Position numbers and translations under genes: made by a program | DNA from: Candidatus Bathyarchaeia archaeon | GTDB lineage: Archaea > Thermoproteota > Bathyarchaeia > Bathyarchaeales > Bathycorpusculaceae | Assembly: GCA_041447175.1 (NCBI GenBank) | Contig: CP166960.1 | Location: 2,620,519-2,684,518 of the forward strand | Reading direction: 5' to 3' | DNA length: 64,000 nucleotides | Part shown: piece after piece, positions 18,543-22,725 of the stretch | Numbering within the stretch: position 1 is the first letter of the stretch | Layout of the letters: every line of letters starts with the position of its first letter | The notes under the pieces: generated by a model | What the model saw: only the letters and a program-made list of their open reading frames with translations | Database searches by the model: none | What the model was told of the DNA's origin: nothing

Positions 18543-20327
18543 ATGCCCATTCGTCAACCCATCGTATGCGTTTTAGGTCACGTGGACAGCGGCAAAACTT
18601 TGTTGCTGGACCGCATCCGCAAAACCAGCGTGCAAGCTCGAGAAGCCGGAGGCATCACTCAGCACATTGGAGCCAGCTTCTTTCCTGTAGAAACCCTTCA
18701 GACGCTCATTGGTCCTCAGCTTTCAGCCACCATGAAGAGCGGTATACAAATTCCTGGGTTGCTGGTTATTGACACGCCGGGGCATGAGGCTTTCACGAAT
18801 CTGCGTCGCAGAGGCGGAAGCGTCGCCGACATAGCCATCCTAGTTATTGACGCGTTGCGAGGGTTTGAAGCGCAAACTTACGAGTGCATAGAAATTCTCA
18901 AAGCACGCAAAACTCCCTTCATTGTGGCGGTTAACAAAATTGACCGCATTGCAGGCTGGAAGTCGCAGCCTTCCTCGCCTTTTCTTAAGGTTTACGCTAA
19001 GCAGGATGCTTACGTGCGGGAAGAGTTAGATAACAAGCTTTACGAAATAATGGGCACCTTCTCCCGTGAGAAACTCAACACCGACCGCTTTGACCGCATC
19101 CGCGACTTCACCTCCACTGTTGCGCTTGTGCCGGTCAGCGCTAAAACCGGCGAAGGTATCCCTGAACTGCTTATGGTTCTTATCGGTTTGACGCAGCAGT
19201 ACCTCAAAAAGCAGCTGCAGACAACGGAGGGCGCAGCAAAGGGCTCTGTGCTGGAGATTAAAGAGGAGCCTGGGTTAGGCTTAACTCTTAACGCCATCAT
19301 ATACGATGGTACCCTAAACAAAGACGACATAATCGTCATCGGCGGCAAACAAGCCCCAATCACTACACGCATCCGCGCGATTCTGGTGCCCAAACCGCTG
19401 GACGAAATGCGTGACCCCCGAGACAAATTCTCGTCGGTGGAAAACGTATTTGCCGCCGCAGGAGTAAAAATCGTGGCCTCCGATTTGGAAGGTGCCCTCG
19501 CCGGAGCGCCCCTTTACGCGGTGGCTCCCGGTGAAACCCCTGAAACGTATATGAAGATAATTGCGGATGAAATCAAGAAAATCCGCATTGACACGCAGGT
19601 GGATGGCGTGATTCTTAAGGCGGACACGTTGGGTTCTTTGGAGGCAACCGCCGAGATGCTTAAACAAAATAACATGCAAATCCGCATCGCCGACGTAGGA
19701 GACGTGTCAAAACGGGATGTGATTGAAGCTTCTGCAGTGAAAAGCCACAACCCGCTACAGGGCGTTATTCTGGCGTTTGGCGTGCGAATCCTGCCTGACG
19801 CGGAAGAAGAAGCCACAATGCGTGGGGTTAGAATTTTCAAAGAACAAATCGTCTACCACATGATTGAAAACTACGTGGACTGGGTGAAATCCAAAAACGA
19901 AGCTAAACTGGAAGCGGAGCTGGAAAAACTTGTTCGCCCCGCCAAAATCTCGGTCATTCCGGGGTACGTTTTTCGCCGAGCCAAACCCGCAATCTTCGGC
20001 GTGGATGTAGCAGTGGGGATTCTTAAACCTAAAACTAACCTTGTTCGGGCTGACGACGGTGAAGATGTGGGTGAGCTTCAGCAGATTCAAGACAAAGGCA
20101 AAGCGGTTTCTCAAGCCACACAGGGCATGCAGGTTGCGGTTTCCATGGATAAACCCACAGTGGGCAGGCACATTTTCGAGAAGGATGTGCTGTTTGTGAA
20201 GGTTCCCGAACCTGATGTGCGAGCTTTTCAGGGTGCATTTGCAGACCAGCTTAACGAGGAAGAACAGGAAGTCCTAAAGCAGTATGTGGTGGCTATGCGC
20301 AAGAAGTCGCCCTTCTTTGCCTTCTAA
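18543..20327 (+). CDS. infB: translation initiation factor aIF5B
   Basis: GTPase that joins ribosomal subunits after initiator tRNA placement. The G-domain motifs are GHVDSGKT (residues 12-19), ITQHIGA, DTPGHEAF and NKID. Domains II-IV follow in archaeal form, with LKADTLGSLEAT as a landmark of domain III. At 594 aa it matches archaeal aIF5B rather than bacterial IF2. A ribosome site TAGGAG lies about 10 bp before ATG 18543. The HNH gene on the other strand overlaps its last 4 bp. Confidence 0.95.
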   Translation: MPIRQPIVCVLGHVDSGKTLLLDRIRKTSVQAREAGGITQHIGASFFPVETLQTLIGPQLSATMKSGIQIPGLLVIDTPGHEAFTNLRRRGGSVADIAILVIDALRGFEAQTYECIEILKARKTPFIVAVNKIDRIAGWKSQPSSPFLKVYAKQDAYVREELDNKLYEIMGTFSREKLNTDRFDRIRDFTSTVALVPVSAKTGEGIPELLMVLIGLTQQYLKKQLQTTEGAAKGSVLEIKEEPGLGLTLNAIIYDGTLNKDDIIVIGGKQAPITTRIRAILVPKPLDEMRDPRDKFSSVENVFAAAGVKIVASDLEGALAGAPLYAVAPGETPETYMKIIADEIKKIRIDTQVDGVILKADTLGSLEATAEMLKQNNMQIRIADVGDVSKRDVIEASAVKSHNPLQGVILAFGVRILPDAEEEATMRGVRIFKEQIVYHMIENYVDWVKSKNEAKLEAELEKLVRPAKISVIPGYVFRRAKPAIFGVDVAVGILKPKTNLVRADDGEDVGELQQIQDKGKAVSQATQGMQVAVSMDKPTVGRHIFEKDVLFVKVPEPDVRAFQGAFADQLNEEEQEVLKQYVVAMRKKSPFFAF

Positions 20328-20908
20328 TCTTCTTTGCAACATAACGTGAGCAAGCCGTCAATGCACAGAACCGAGAGTTTGCCCTCCGTTTTCTCTTGGA
20401 CGCAGAGGTTTTTTAGGTCGCATTTTGGGCAAATCTTCGCAGTTACCTGCTTGATGTCCATGTCTAAGAGGTTTTGCTCTTCTAAAACTTCATACGCGAA
20501 CTTTAGGTATTTGCCTTCGGCGATGCGTGGGACTTCGTTTTTGCCTTTTTTTAAGCCGCGTTGAATGACCCAGTATTCATAGAGCCTTTTGGAGCCCTTC
20601 TTGGAGTTGCATGTCCTGCACACCCAAACCACATTTTTTTCGCTGTTGGGTCCATTGAAACAGCGTGGTAGCAGATGCTCCAATGTTAAACCCGTTTTGG
20701 CGCCGCAGTAGATGCATTCGCCGTTTAGGTCTTTCTCTTTGATGTACTCGCGGATTTCGTTCCACTCAATTTCCCCCGTGCGTAGCTGCTTGAGCTTCTT
20801 GGTCACGAATCCGTAGTCGTCTTTGCAGAAGCCTGCTGAAACCGCAATTATTTTTGCGTACTGCCAAAAAAGTAGGTCTCGAACATTCTTCACAGTTGCC
20901 GGAGGCAA
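20324..20908 (-). CDS. HNH endonuclease-like protein with C-terminal Cys cluster
   Basis: Protein of 194 aa. The HNH core is complete: CIYCG, LTLEHLLPRCFNG, VWVCRTCNSKKG (residues about 65-105), giving two zinc CxxC pairs, the HNH His and Asn. The C-terminus adds a second cluster (CPKCDLKNLC ... LCIDGLLTLCC) that could hold an Fe-S cluster or zinc. The start is TTG 20908 or an in-frame GTG five codons in. No partner methylase is nearby, so it is not an obvious restriction system. Confidence 0.7.
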   Translation of the reverse strand: MPPATVKNVRDLLFWQYAKIIAVSAGFCKDDYGFVTKKLKQLRTGEIEWNEIREYIKEKDLNGECIYCGAKTGLTLEHLLPRCFNGPNSEKNVVWVCRTCNSKKGSKRLYEYWVIQRGLKKGKNEVPRIAEGKYLKFAYEVLEEQNLLDMDIKQVTAKICPKCDLKNLCVQEKTEGKLSVLCIDGLLTLCCKED

Positions 20909-20971: not shown

Positions 20972-21256
20972 CTATCCGCCGCCGACGGGGGGCACAATCG
21001 CCAAAACATCCTCCTCATGCAACTTGCTGTCTAAGCCTTTCACGGCTGCGGTGCTTTGTCCGTTTATGAAAAACTGTAGGAACCCTTTGACTTTGCCGTT
21101 TTGGTCGTAGACGTATTCGGTGAAAGGTTCTCCGTAGCGTTGGGCTAAGGTTTGGAGGGCGGTGTCGATGGTGGCATCTTGGGGGAGTTGGAGGGTTTCT
21201 TCTTTTTTGTCGGTGATTTCTCTGAGTACGGTGAAGAAGCGGACTGAGATTTGCAC
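20972..21256 (-). CDS. MoaD/ThiS-family ubiquitin-like sulphur carrier
   Basis: Beta-grasp protein of 94 aa that ends in Gly-Gly-Gly (AIVPPVGGG), the tail that is adenylated and thiocarboxylated in MoaD, ThiS and archaeal SAMPs. MQISVRFFTVLREITDKKEE and LQTLAQRYGEPF match the MoaD form, and FFINGQSTAAVKGLDSKLHEEDVLAIVPPV is the conserved second half. The start is GTG 21256. It could serve molybdopterin/tungstopterin synthesis, tRNA thiolation or protein conjugation; no MoaE or E1 gene is in the window. Confidence 0.8.
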   Translation of the reverse strand: MQISVRFFTVLREITDKKEETLQLPQDATIDTALQTLAQRYGEPFTEYVYDQNGKVKGFLQFFINGQSTAAVKGLDSKLHEEDVLAIVPPVGGG

Positions 21257-21381
21257 GTTTTTCGCCGGTGGATTATGGGTTGTTGGGTGGATTAATTTGT
21301 TGTGGGCTGGTTTGTGGTTTTGTGGTTTTGTGGTGGGTTTTGTTTTTTGAAATCGGAATGCCTATAAGAAAGATGGAATAT

Positions 21382-21401
21382 ATATTCTAATATTAGAATA
21401 T
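21382..21401. promoter_or_regulatory. perfect 20-bp palindromic operator
   Basis: ATATTCTAATATTAGAATAT is a perfect 20-bp palindrome overlapping a second, shorter one (GAATATATATTC, 21376-21387). The 10-mer TTAGAATATT in it is repeated at 22354-22363, just before the ArsR gene. This is the form of an ArsR-family operator, so the secreted-protein gene and the regulator are probably under the same repressor. Confidence 0.6.
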
Positions 21402-21506
21402 TGGTGTGACGGAATTTGGTAACCCAAAAAACACCCAAACTAACCATCACCCTAACACAAACCTCAACCAACCCACACCAACCAAGAGCACATTGGAGGT
21501 GAAAAA

Positions 21507-22295
21507 ATGAAAACATGGAAACTCATAACCGTCCTCGCATTAACCCTAACCATCGCGGGAGTCGCAGGGGCTTCCGCTTACGCATTCTGCTGGTGGGGCA
21601 CACCAACCCCCAACACCAACGGCGTAACCACCCCAACCACAGCCCTGCCAACCCCCGAAACCACAAACACCCCACCAACCCTCTACACACCCCAAACCCA
21701 AACATACGCAGACGGATACGGCGGACGCTGCTGGGGCGGCTGCAGAGGTAACTGGGGCTACGGATACGGCTCAGCAACCAACACCGCAACAACCCCAATA
21801 ACAATAGAGGAAGCAACCCAAATTGCCCAAACCTACATAGCCTCCCTCAACAACCCCGACTTAGAAGTCACACACGTAGAACAGTACACCGCCAACTTTT
21901 ACGTCCAAGTAAGCGAGAAAAGCACAGGGTATGGCGCCTTTGAACTGCTCATAAACCCAACCACCGGCGTAGTAACCGCGGAACCTGGACCCAACATGAT
22001 GTGGAACACCAAATACAGCTTCAAGGCAGGCTTCTGCAGCTGGATAGACGCCGCAAATGCCAATGGTCAACCCACAGTCACAGTTGAGCAAGCCCAAGCC
22101 AACGCACAGCAATACCTCGACACCTACCTACAAGGCACAACAACCGGTGACATAACAGCATTCTACGGCTACTACACCGTTGAAGTCCTCAACGGCGGCA
22201 CTCATTACGGTATGCTCAGCGTAAACGCATACACAGGTCAGGTTTGGTACCACACATGGCATGGCACCTTCGTTGAAGAAGCCACAACAGCCTAA
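21507..22295 (+). CDS. secreted protein with two PepSY-like repeats
   Basis: Exported protein of 262 aa with a signal peptide (KLITVLALTLTIAGVAGASAYA), a Thr/Pro-rich linker to about residue 75, a Gly/Trp/Tyr patch with two Cys (GGRCWGGCRGNWGYGYG), and two alike units beginning TIEEATQIAQTYI and TVEQAQANAQQYL. Each of these ends in a strand pair with AFELLINPTTG or MLSVNAYTGQV, as in PepSY domains. A strong ribosome site GGAGGTGA precedes the ATG. The palindrome at 21382-21401 lies about 105 bp upstream, and an ArsR gene follows. The metal- or stress-controlled role is inferred. Confidence 0.65.
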   Translation: MKTWKLITVLALTLTIAGVAGASAYAFCWWGTPTPNTNGVTTPTTALPTPETTNTPPTLYTPQTQTYADGYGGRCWGGCRGNWGYGYGSATNTATTPITIEEATQIAQTYIASLNNPDLEVTHVEQYTANFYVQVSEKSTGYGAFELLINPTTGVVTAEPGPNMMWNTKYSFKAGFCSWIDAANANGQPTVTVEQAQANAQQYLDTYLQGTTTGDITAFYGYYTVEVLNGGTHYGMLSVNAYTGQVWYHTWHGTFVEEATTA

Positions 22296-22306
22296 ACCCA
22301 AAACCC

Positions 22307-22327
22307 CTTTCTTTTCTTTTTGTTTTT
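22307..22327 (+). terminator. oligo-T terminator
   Basis: Runs of T (CCCCTTTCTTTTCTTTTTG) start 12 bp after the stop of the secreted PepSY-like gene, the usual archaeal termination signal. No stem is needed. Confidence 0.5.
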
Positions 22328-22353
22328 GATAAACCTTAAGAGTTGTAGCAATG

Positions 22354-22365
22354 TTAGAATATTAA
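22354..22365. promoter_or_regulatory. operator half-site before the ArsR gene
   Basis: TTAGAATATTAA repeats the right half of the palindrome at 21382-21401 and ends 9 bp before the ArsR ATG, where bound repressor would block initiation. It suggests autoregulation. Confidence 0.5.
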
Positions 22366-22374
22366 GGAACAACC

Positions 22375-22725
22375 ATGTCTAACGCGAAACTCGACATGAC
22401 AATCTACGAGCTGCAAGCAGAAATCTCAAAAACCCTCTCCCATCCCGTTCGGCTGGCAATTCTCCACTTCCTCAAGGAAGGTGAAAAAACAGTCAACGAA
22501 ATCGCCGAACACGTCGGGGTCAGCCAATCCAACGTCTCCCAGCATCTGGCGTTTATGCGGCAGCGGCAAATCGTGAAAACCCGCAAAACTGGGACCAACA
22601 TCTACTACAGAGTAACCAACCCAAAAATAAGCGATGCCTGCGACTTGATGCGCGAGGTTCTGCTGGAGCAACTTCGAAGCAAACAGAAATTGGCGGAAAA
22701 CTACTCGGGAGCAAGCAGCGATTAA
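22375..22725 (+). CDS. ArsR-family winged-helix transcription regulator
   Basis: DNA-binding repressor of 116 aa. The winged helix reads LSHPVRLAILHFLKEGEKTVNEIAEHVGVSQSNVSQHLAFMRQRQIVKTRKTG-type, with the recognition helix at SQSNVSQHLAFMR (residues about 50-62) and wing GTNIYYRVT. There is no CxC metal site in the recognition region; the only clear Cys is in SDACDLM near residue 85, so the signal may not be a thiophilic metal. The gene has a half-operator immediately upstream and a full one before the secreted protein at 21507. It converges on the next gene with a 4-bp overlap. Confidence 0.8.
   Translation: MSNAKLDMTIYELQAEISKTLSHPVRLAILHFLKEGEKTVNEIAEHVGVSQSNVSQHLAFMRQRQIVKTRKTGTNIYYRVTNPKISDACDLMREVLLEQLRSKQKLAENYSGASSD

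Follow-up and report, generated by a model that had tools for sequence, protein, structure and literature searches.

A conserved palindrome suggests dedicated control of an exported tandem-PepSY protein by a neighbouring ArsR-family regulator in Bathyarchaeia

In the 64,000-nucleotide stretch of DNA from a Candidatus Bathyarchaeia archaeon analysed here (the window), which belongs to a 2.73-Mb genome on one contig, the gene of a secreted tandem-PepSY protein is followed on the same strand by that of an ArsR-family regulator. Comparison with related genomes shows that the gene pair is conserved together with a putative operator before the PepSY gene, and that the presence of this operator depends on ArsR and its position is kept; on this evidence the regulation of PepSY by ArsR is well supported. 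That related species retain the putative site ahead of each gene of the pair points to a dedicated on-off switch. As the best reading of the data we regard it as somewhat probable that the regulator is a dedicated thiol-sensing repressor, limiting itself as well, and that its target is an extracytoplasmic protein of soft-metal or sulfur stress. The features of the locus are as follows.

21361..21368, plus strand: TATA-like box CCTATAAG, read from the sequence, putatively of the PepSY promoter
21382..21401, no strand assigned: 20-bp perfect palindrome ATATTCTAATATTAGAATAT, proposed operator of the PepSY promoter from sequence and conservation
21507..22295, plus strand: gene of the secreted tandem-PepSY protein, 262 aa, from the ORF, profile and fold model
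22334..22342, plus strand: probable TATA box CCTTAAGAG of the ArsR promoter, from the sequence and by analogy with relatives
22354..22363, plus strand: half operator TTAGAATATT before ArsR, from the sequence and the sites of relatives
22375..22725, plus strand: gene of the ArsR-family winged-helix regulator, 116 aa, with the C89 codon at 22639-22641

The TATA-like box and the palindrome are separated by 13 bp, CCTTAAGAG and the half-site by 11 bp, and the half-site and the ArsR ATG at 22375 by another 11 bp. A protein bound at either position would lie over the transcription start, as expected for a repressor. The divergent neighbour of the PepSY gene (window 20972-21256, minus strand) encodes a small modifier protein of the ThiS/MoaD family, similar to SAMP1, and no such gene was found at the corresponding place in relatives. 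A small HNH protein encoded at 20324-20908 (minus strand) is weakly similar to the HNH part of IscB/Cas9 (NF040563, 45.7 bits with a cut-off of 175). Of the four scanned neighbours of the window's pair none was recognised as a metal gene, and an SQR-like neighbour is absent there; the window's own gene neighbours decide nothing about the signal.

The perfect palindrome described in the initial annotation is present before the secreted-protein gene and is the sole perfect palindrome of at least 18 bp in the window. A Markov-1 simulation gave an expected 0.12 palindromes of at least 20 bp in the window by chance, and its rarity alone is thus unusual but not decisive; it is the conservation in relatives that rules out a chance palindrome. 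The identical 20-mer occurs in a genome of the same genus (G088), the 16-bp core recurs in G049, and six other pairs deviate by 1-2 mismatches. Within 250 bp before the PepSY gene the operator was found with 0-2 mismatches of 16 in all nine loci where ArsR follows, a level reached by at most 0.3% of simulated sequences. In contrast, none of the 10 tested PepSY genes without ArsR, which are the bathyarchaeial members of the family set, has it; their best scores (6-8 mismatches) are the same as those of simulated sequence. The two operator forms scored were drawn from the ArsR-paired group and are therefore biased toward it, but the gap is large enough for this to be unimportant. The comparison leaves out a locus with a divergent ArsR paralogue (L133), the other ArsR-less PepSY genes, and G015, where the order is ArsR-DsrE-PepSY. 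Locus L132 contains one 10-mer with 1 mismatch to TTAGAATATT. A box similar to CCTATAAG lies ahead of the operator in 9/9 pairs, with 10-36 bp from box start to the start of the operator match, both by a loose pattern written for these pairs. The 16-bp core has 1 exact copy in the 2.73-Mb genome and, as the next closest, 7 sites with 3 mismatches, compared with 3 in the reversed control, and TAGAATATT occurs at 12 places versus 8 in the reversed control. We rejected a wider regulon in the window's genome; the TAGAATATT places outside the pair looked scattered, with a few of them upstream of ORFs.

The pair itself was searched for in 162 genomes of the order, 22 of which contain ArsR homologues (E 1e-15 or better) and 25 PepSY homologues (E 1e-5 or better). 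PepSY followed by ArsR was found at nine loci, which are spread over 7 genomes: the window, G088, G048 (three loci), G049, G061, G059 and G057. In G062 and G063 the regulator is present and PepSY absent, and many genomes have PepSY and lack ArsR. In G063 the ArsR gene is followed, in place of PepSY, by that of a 105-aa exported-looking, Cys-bearing protein with no Pfam match (L106:8046-8363).

A site similar to TTAGAATATTCGAA lies at the gene's own start in 14 of 16 ArsR homologues, with 0-2 mismatches to the best of four forms; these counts were made with no shuffled control. The two exceptions, each with 4 mismatches, are the window and one G048 paralogue. The recurrence of half the palindrome before the ArsR ATG, proposed in the initial annotation, is thus borne out at 22354-22363, but only as a half-site that differs from the relatives' forms at 4 of 14 positions. 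The window's TTAGAATATT appears to be a half decayed form of the relatives' TTAGAATATTCGAA, and with its ArsR-side site half lost, self-regulation may be weak in the window's organism. The CGAA/CTAA form occurs at 7 places in the 162 genomes, all at ArsR genes, and the AGAA and ATAA forms are found also away from ArsR genes. Of 18 places with TTAGAATATTMKAA in these genomes, 7 are without an ArsR or PepSY match by tblastn (G005, G027, G042, G048 C124, G049 C3, G075 and G103). A variant of the site is also present at the starts of ArsR paralogues that adjoin OsmC and not PepSY. In seven relatives the site is in frame and reads ATG-TTA-GAA-TAT-TC, giving an apparent MLEYS extension. We took this as the operator read in frame and not as a real N-terminus; as a stop is present at this point in the window, the true start of ArsR is probably the downstream ATG.

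The regulator is an ArsR-type winged-helix protein by both profile and fold: it passes HTH_5 (60.1 bits, cut-off 22) and NF033788 (89.8 bits, cut-off 55), and ArsR proteins with Z 13-15 stand at the top of the structural match list. QSNxSQH is invariant across 13 aligned ArsRs. In agreement with the initial annotation there is no CxC; the only Cys is C89, which is invariant in 16/16 homologues and is located within helix alpha5 of the predicted model (residues 83-113, mean pLDDT 90). C89 corresponds to SmtB residue 111 in a gapless structural alignment to 1r23 (3-99 onto 25-121), and the sequence profile gives the same assignment once extended 4 positions past its aligned end. In SmtB the alpha5 ligands pair across the dimer, 104 with 120 and 106 with 117, which places residue 111-112 on the dimer axis, so C89 should face C89'; we therefore predict that C89 lies at the two-fold axis opposite its counterpart. 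Among the best structural matches are M. smegmatis SmtB (Z 15.3), CzrA (14.3-14.8) and Synechococcus SmtB (13.4-14.0), and SmtB/CzrA operators are palindromes of a style similar to that in the window. Sensors of this type bind metal through CxC in alpha3 or a D/H set in alpha5; unlike them, the window's ArsR lacks both, its alpha5 reading NPKISDACDLMREVLLEQ. It also shares the ArsR fold with SqrR, BigR and SoxR (BigR Z 13.5, SqrR Z 13.0). SqrR and BigR use two Cys according to the available parts of PMC8960804 and PMC12423496, and this pair (alpha2 plus alpha5/C-terminus) is absent from the window's ArsR, where the only Cys, C89, is elsewhere in the protein and aligns with about SqrR residue 99. 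The score against NF040642 is 66.7 bits, with a cut-off of 155. A second Cys in alpha1 occurs in five paralogues (one each in G015, G050 and G049, two in G048); it is missing from all 9 PepSY-linked ArsRs and from those of G062 and G063, and the signal of the PepSY-linked proteins may therefore have changed.

Wider ArsR homologues in the phylum were counted in 22 of 23 cases (L213 gave no row), from 30 loci given for 47 matches. Among the matches listed, 18 of the 22 have the alpha5 Cys, and 10 of these 18 directly follow an SQR-like gene, 2 follow a DsrK-like gene and 1 has a rhodanese-MBL gene as neighbour. An SQR- or DsrK-like gene lies ahead of none of the 4 listed homologues without the Cys; the neighbour of one of them (L225) is DsrE-like by eye. 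The SQR assignment is based on near full-length matches of 270-370 bits, which are below the 525-bit cut-off of the selenoprotein model, and one SQR-like neighbour matches solved SQRs at E 4e-42. SQR was profile-tested in 6 of the 10 SQR-like neighbours and in one from G048, and DsrK in 1 of 2, the remainder being assigned by eye. No PepSY match was present near the 22 listed homologues, in loci that reach at most 1.5 kb to each side. The alpha5-Cys homologues after SQR-like genes, from other Thermoproteota (L205, L207, L208, L210, L212, L214-L217 and L223), are candidate archaeal sulfide-responsive regulators, and their adjoining of SQR-like genes is like that of the sulfane-sulfur ArsRs in the available text of PMC12423496. 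Close to other ArsR homologues there are genes for OsmC, DsrE and peroxiredoxin, which fit thiol stress.

The exported protein has an N-terminal hydrophobic signal, a Thr/Pro linker with 3 Cys and no Met, and the motifs GPNMMWN and WxHxWHG. Its own Pfam PepSY match is weak (E 0.00024; 21.8 bits, under the gathering score of 24). A PepSY match at E 0.01 or better was obtained for 37 of 64 family members, and the best Foldseek match of the fold model is YpeB (5boi, E 2.3e-4, TM only 0.22-0.25). Through these relatives and Foldseek the protein can be assigned to the PepSY domain, as the initial annotation had supposed. In the model an N-terminal helix and a disordered linker are seen besides two helix-plus-sheet PepSY units at about residues 100-158 and 193-260, with a mean pLDDT of 75 and values mostly above 90 in the units. 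The family is broad: 483 of 490 candidate stretches were confirmed, and the 80 loci kept of these are from Bathyarchaeota, Methanoperedens, Chloroflexi, Thaumarchaeota and others. Eight of the 80 genome loci have no PepSY ORF, and of 73 PepSY ORFs 5 lacking WxHxWHG were dropped and 5 more left out of the 64-row alignment. G161-P-N, W166-N and W247-x-H-x-W-H-G are invariant in the 64 rows, which is partly by choice, since the scan was seeded with GPNMMWN and GQ[VI]W[YV]H[TN]W and the ORFs without WxHxWHG were removed.

In the mechanism that we propose, an ArsR dimer would sit on the palindrome just 3' of the PepSY TATA box and block TFB/RNA polymerase, and on the related site at its own start it would limit itself. 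An intracellular thiol-reactive signal, which could be an oxidant, Cu+ or another soft metal, or reactive sulfur species, would act at C89, and through C89/C89' across the two-fold axis on alpha5 the DNA would be released. The derepressed gene would give rise to the exported tandem-PepSY protein, whose Met/Cys-bearing linker, together with NMMWN and WxHxWHG, may bind ligands, soft metal or sulfur, on the outer side of the cell membrane. ArsR-DNA binding, repression, the signal and the function of PepSY are in this sense what we infer. A thiol or sulfur signal is suggested because of the Cys and the SQR-like neighbours of the wider relatives, while a metal signal is the alternative because of the Met-rich linkers, P-type ATPases and NikR at some loci.

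This alternative, in which the regulation is the same but ArsR would simply sense metal (Cu+, Ag+, Ni2+ or similar) and PepSY would be a UipA-like extracytoplasmic metal buffer, we consider rather unlikely. The family linkers, of GMMG type, contain at least one MM pair in 54 of 64 cases (with approximate linker bounds); P-type ATPases are encoded within about 5 kb of the pairs in G049, G048 and G061, and a NikR-like protein in the last two; and the ATPase cluster c7 is found in 11 of the 80 family loci, the neighbour counts having no random-gene baseline. In addition, UipA is a metal-binding tandem-PepSY protein in the available part of PMC8963506. Opposed to these points are the regulator itself, with one Cys per subunit, no CxC and no D/H ligands of SmtB type in alpha5, and the four scanned neighbours of the window's pair, where no metal gene was recognised.

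Still less likely in our view is a PepSY protein that acts as an inhibitor of envelope proteases or as a folding aid (YpeB/propeptide-like) and is induced by envelope or thiol stress. It would agree with YpeB as the best Foldseek match and with the vibriolysin propeptide rows (Z 5.7-6.0, below the tool's telling level) in a second structural comparison, where every row was below Z 8; the family profile gave no match to PDB sequences at E 1. The commonest neighbour clusters include no peptidase recognised by eye, and the conserved motifs contain Met, Trp and His, in rows partly chosen by those motifs, which speaks against it. UipA is absent from the PDB sequence and structure matches, but may still be akin to the family. 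It is very improbable that a different regulator binds the palindrome, or that it is an RNA or terminator structure, and that it is only incidentally associated with ArsR, for even if it is AT-rich, self-complementary and with a chance expectation in the window that is not tiny, it tracks ArsR and not PepSY (9/9 versus 0/10) and has a variant at ArsR's own start, including paralogues by OsmC.

Many bathyarchaeial PepSY genes have three copies of GTTTCA at 11-bp spacing just ahead of a second TATA-like box. A search of the 162 genomes for this triple element with one mismatch allowed gave 24 matches, two pairs of which overlap, in 16 genomes (L228-L251, e.g. L239:1501-1528), and 1 match in the reversed control. 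A PepSY match is downstream in 13 of the 24 loci, in one of which (L250) PepSY is not the nearest ORF; other elements sit before small exported proteins. By eye, 8 of the 24 loci also have a divergent gene for a membrane protein whose outer part is rich in Met; a representative of this protein contains a DUF7343 winged helix. This protein (L104:5753-6415 and relatives L252-L276) is often encoded divergently from PepSY genes or those of other exported proteins. At E 1e-20 or better it occurs in 13 of the 16 genomes with the GTTTCA element versus 11 of the 146 others, uncorrected for relatedness, and it is a candidate one-component sensor for the element. The element is absent from the window's genome, which has only a distant relative of the Met-rich protein (E 8.7e-19).

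At 17 archaeal loci (13 named Methanoperedens or Methanoperedenaceae, 4 from uncultured archaea) PepSY is followed by a 95-111-aa regulator of the ArsR clan, and at 16 of these a thioredoxin-like gene comes next, one of each gene type having been Pfam-tested. At seven other Methanoperedens PepSY loci no ArsR-clan regulator is directly downstream. TGTAAG-N5-CTTACA lies upstream of PepSY in 15/17 loci, after a TATA-like box by eye. A genome scan, which took in 16 of the 17 loci, found this palindrome exactly once in 15 of 16 genomes (L282-L296), with no copy in the sixteenth; with the reversed control, 4 places turned up in 3 genomes. Fourteen of the 15 single sites precede the PepSY gene and one precedes a shortened ORF, followed by the regulator, with the same signal and Met-rich linker and the PepSY part missing. 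Judged from these sequences, Methanoperedens shows the same plan as Bathyarchaeia with a different ArsR-clan regulator and palindrome. In the bacterial loci, mostly of Chloroflexi by title, the neighbours include a response regulator (17/80) and a HAMP kinase (19/80), and one or the other is within four genes in 14 of 72 PepSY loci (one representative of each tested).

The initial annotation knew of no described system with this pairing, and our literature search, which covered PepSY with ArsR and archaea, Methanoperedens, copper, archaeal regulators and sulfide as well as ArsR in Bathyarchaeia, likewise found no PepSY-ArsR system and nothing on archaeal control of PepSY proteins. Among the nearest known systems is UipA-UipRS of Microbacterium, where, in the available part of the report (PMC8963506), a uranium- and iron-binding tandem-PepSY protein goes with a two-component system. 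Both systems have a tandem-PepSY protein at the membrane and a gene adjoining a regulator; as there described, UipA is single-pass transmembrane with a two-component system, whereas here the regulator is a one-component, archaeal ArsR and the linkers carry Met or Cys. For DbfQ-DbfRS, the available text of PMC12714742 describes PepSY proteins that in many bacteria are paired with a regulator encoded next to them. DbfQ acts on the sensory domain of the kinase, whereas here a DNA-binding regulator is the partner and a conserved site lies at the PepSY gene. Unlike in both systems, no adjacent kinase or response regulator was found among the four scanned neighbours of the window's pair.

The module supplies candidate operators of exact sequence, one target gene and one candidate sensor residue, so that two short DNAs and a small protein would suffice for testing binding and inducer in vitro. 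As a possible and still tentative generalisation, the exported, Met/Cys-bearing tandem-PepSY family may be a cross-domain stress output under private switches: ArsR in Bathyarchaeia, a repressor of the ArsR clan with one operator per genome in Methanoperedens, and two-component systems mainly in Chloroflexi, with Bathyarchaeia adding the input of the Met-rich winged-helix membrane protein through the triple GTTTCA element, in which case one gene would integrate a metal signal from outside and a thiol signal from inside. The PepSY-regulator modules named above use two-component partners, and the archaeal form with an ArsR partner appears to be new; it links a broad family of exported proteins that has no name, with 483 confirmed stretches, to a testable role in thiol or soft-metal stress.
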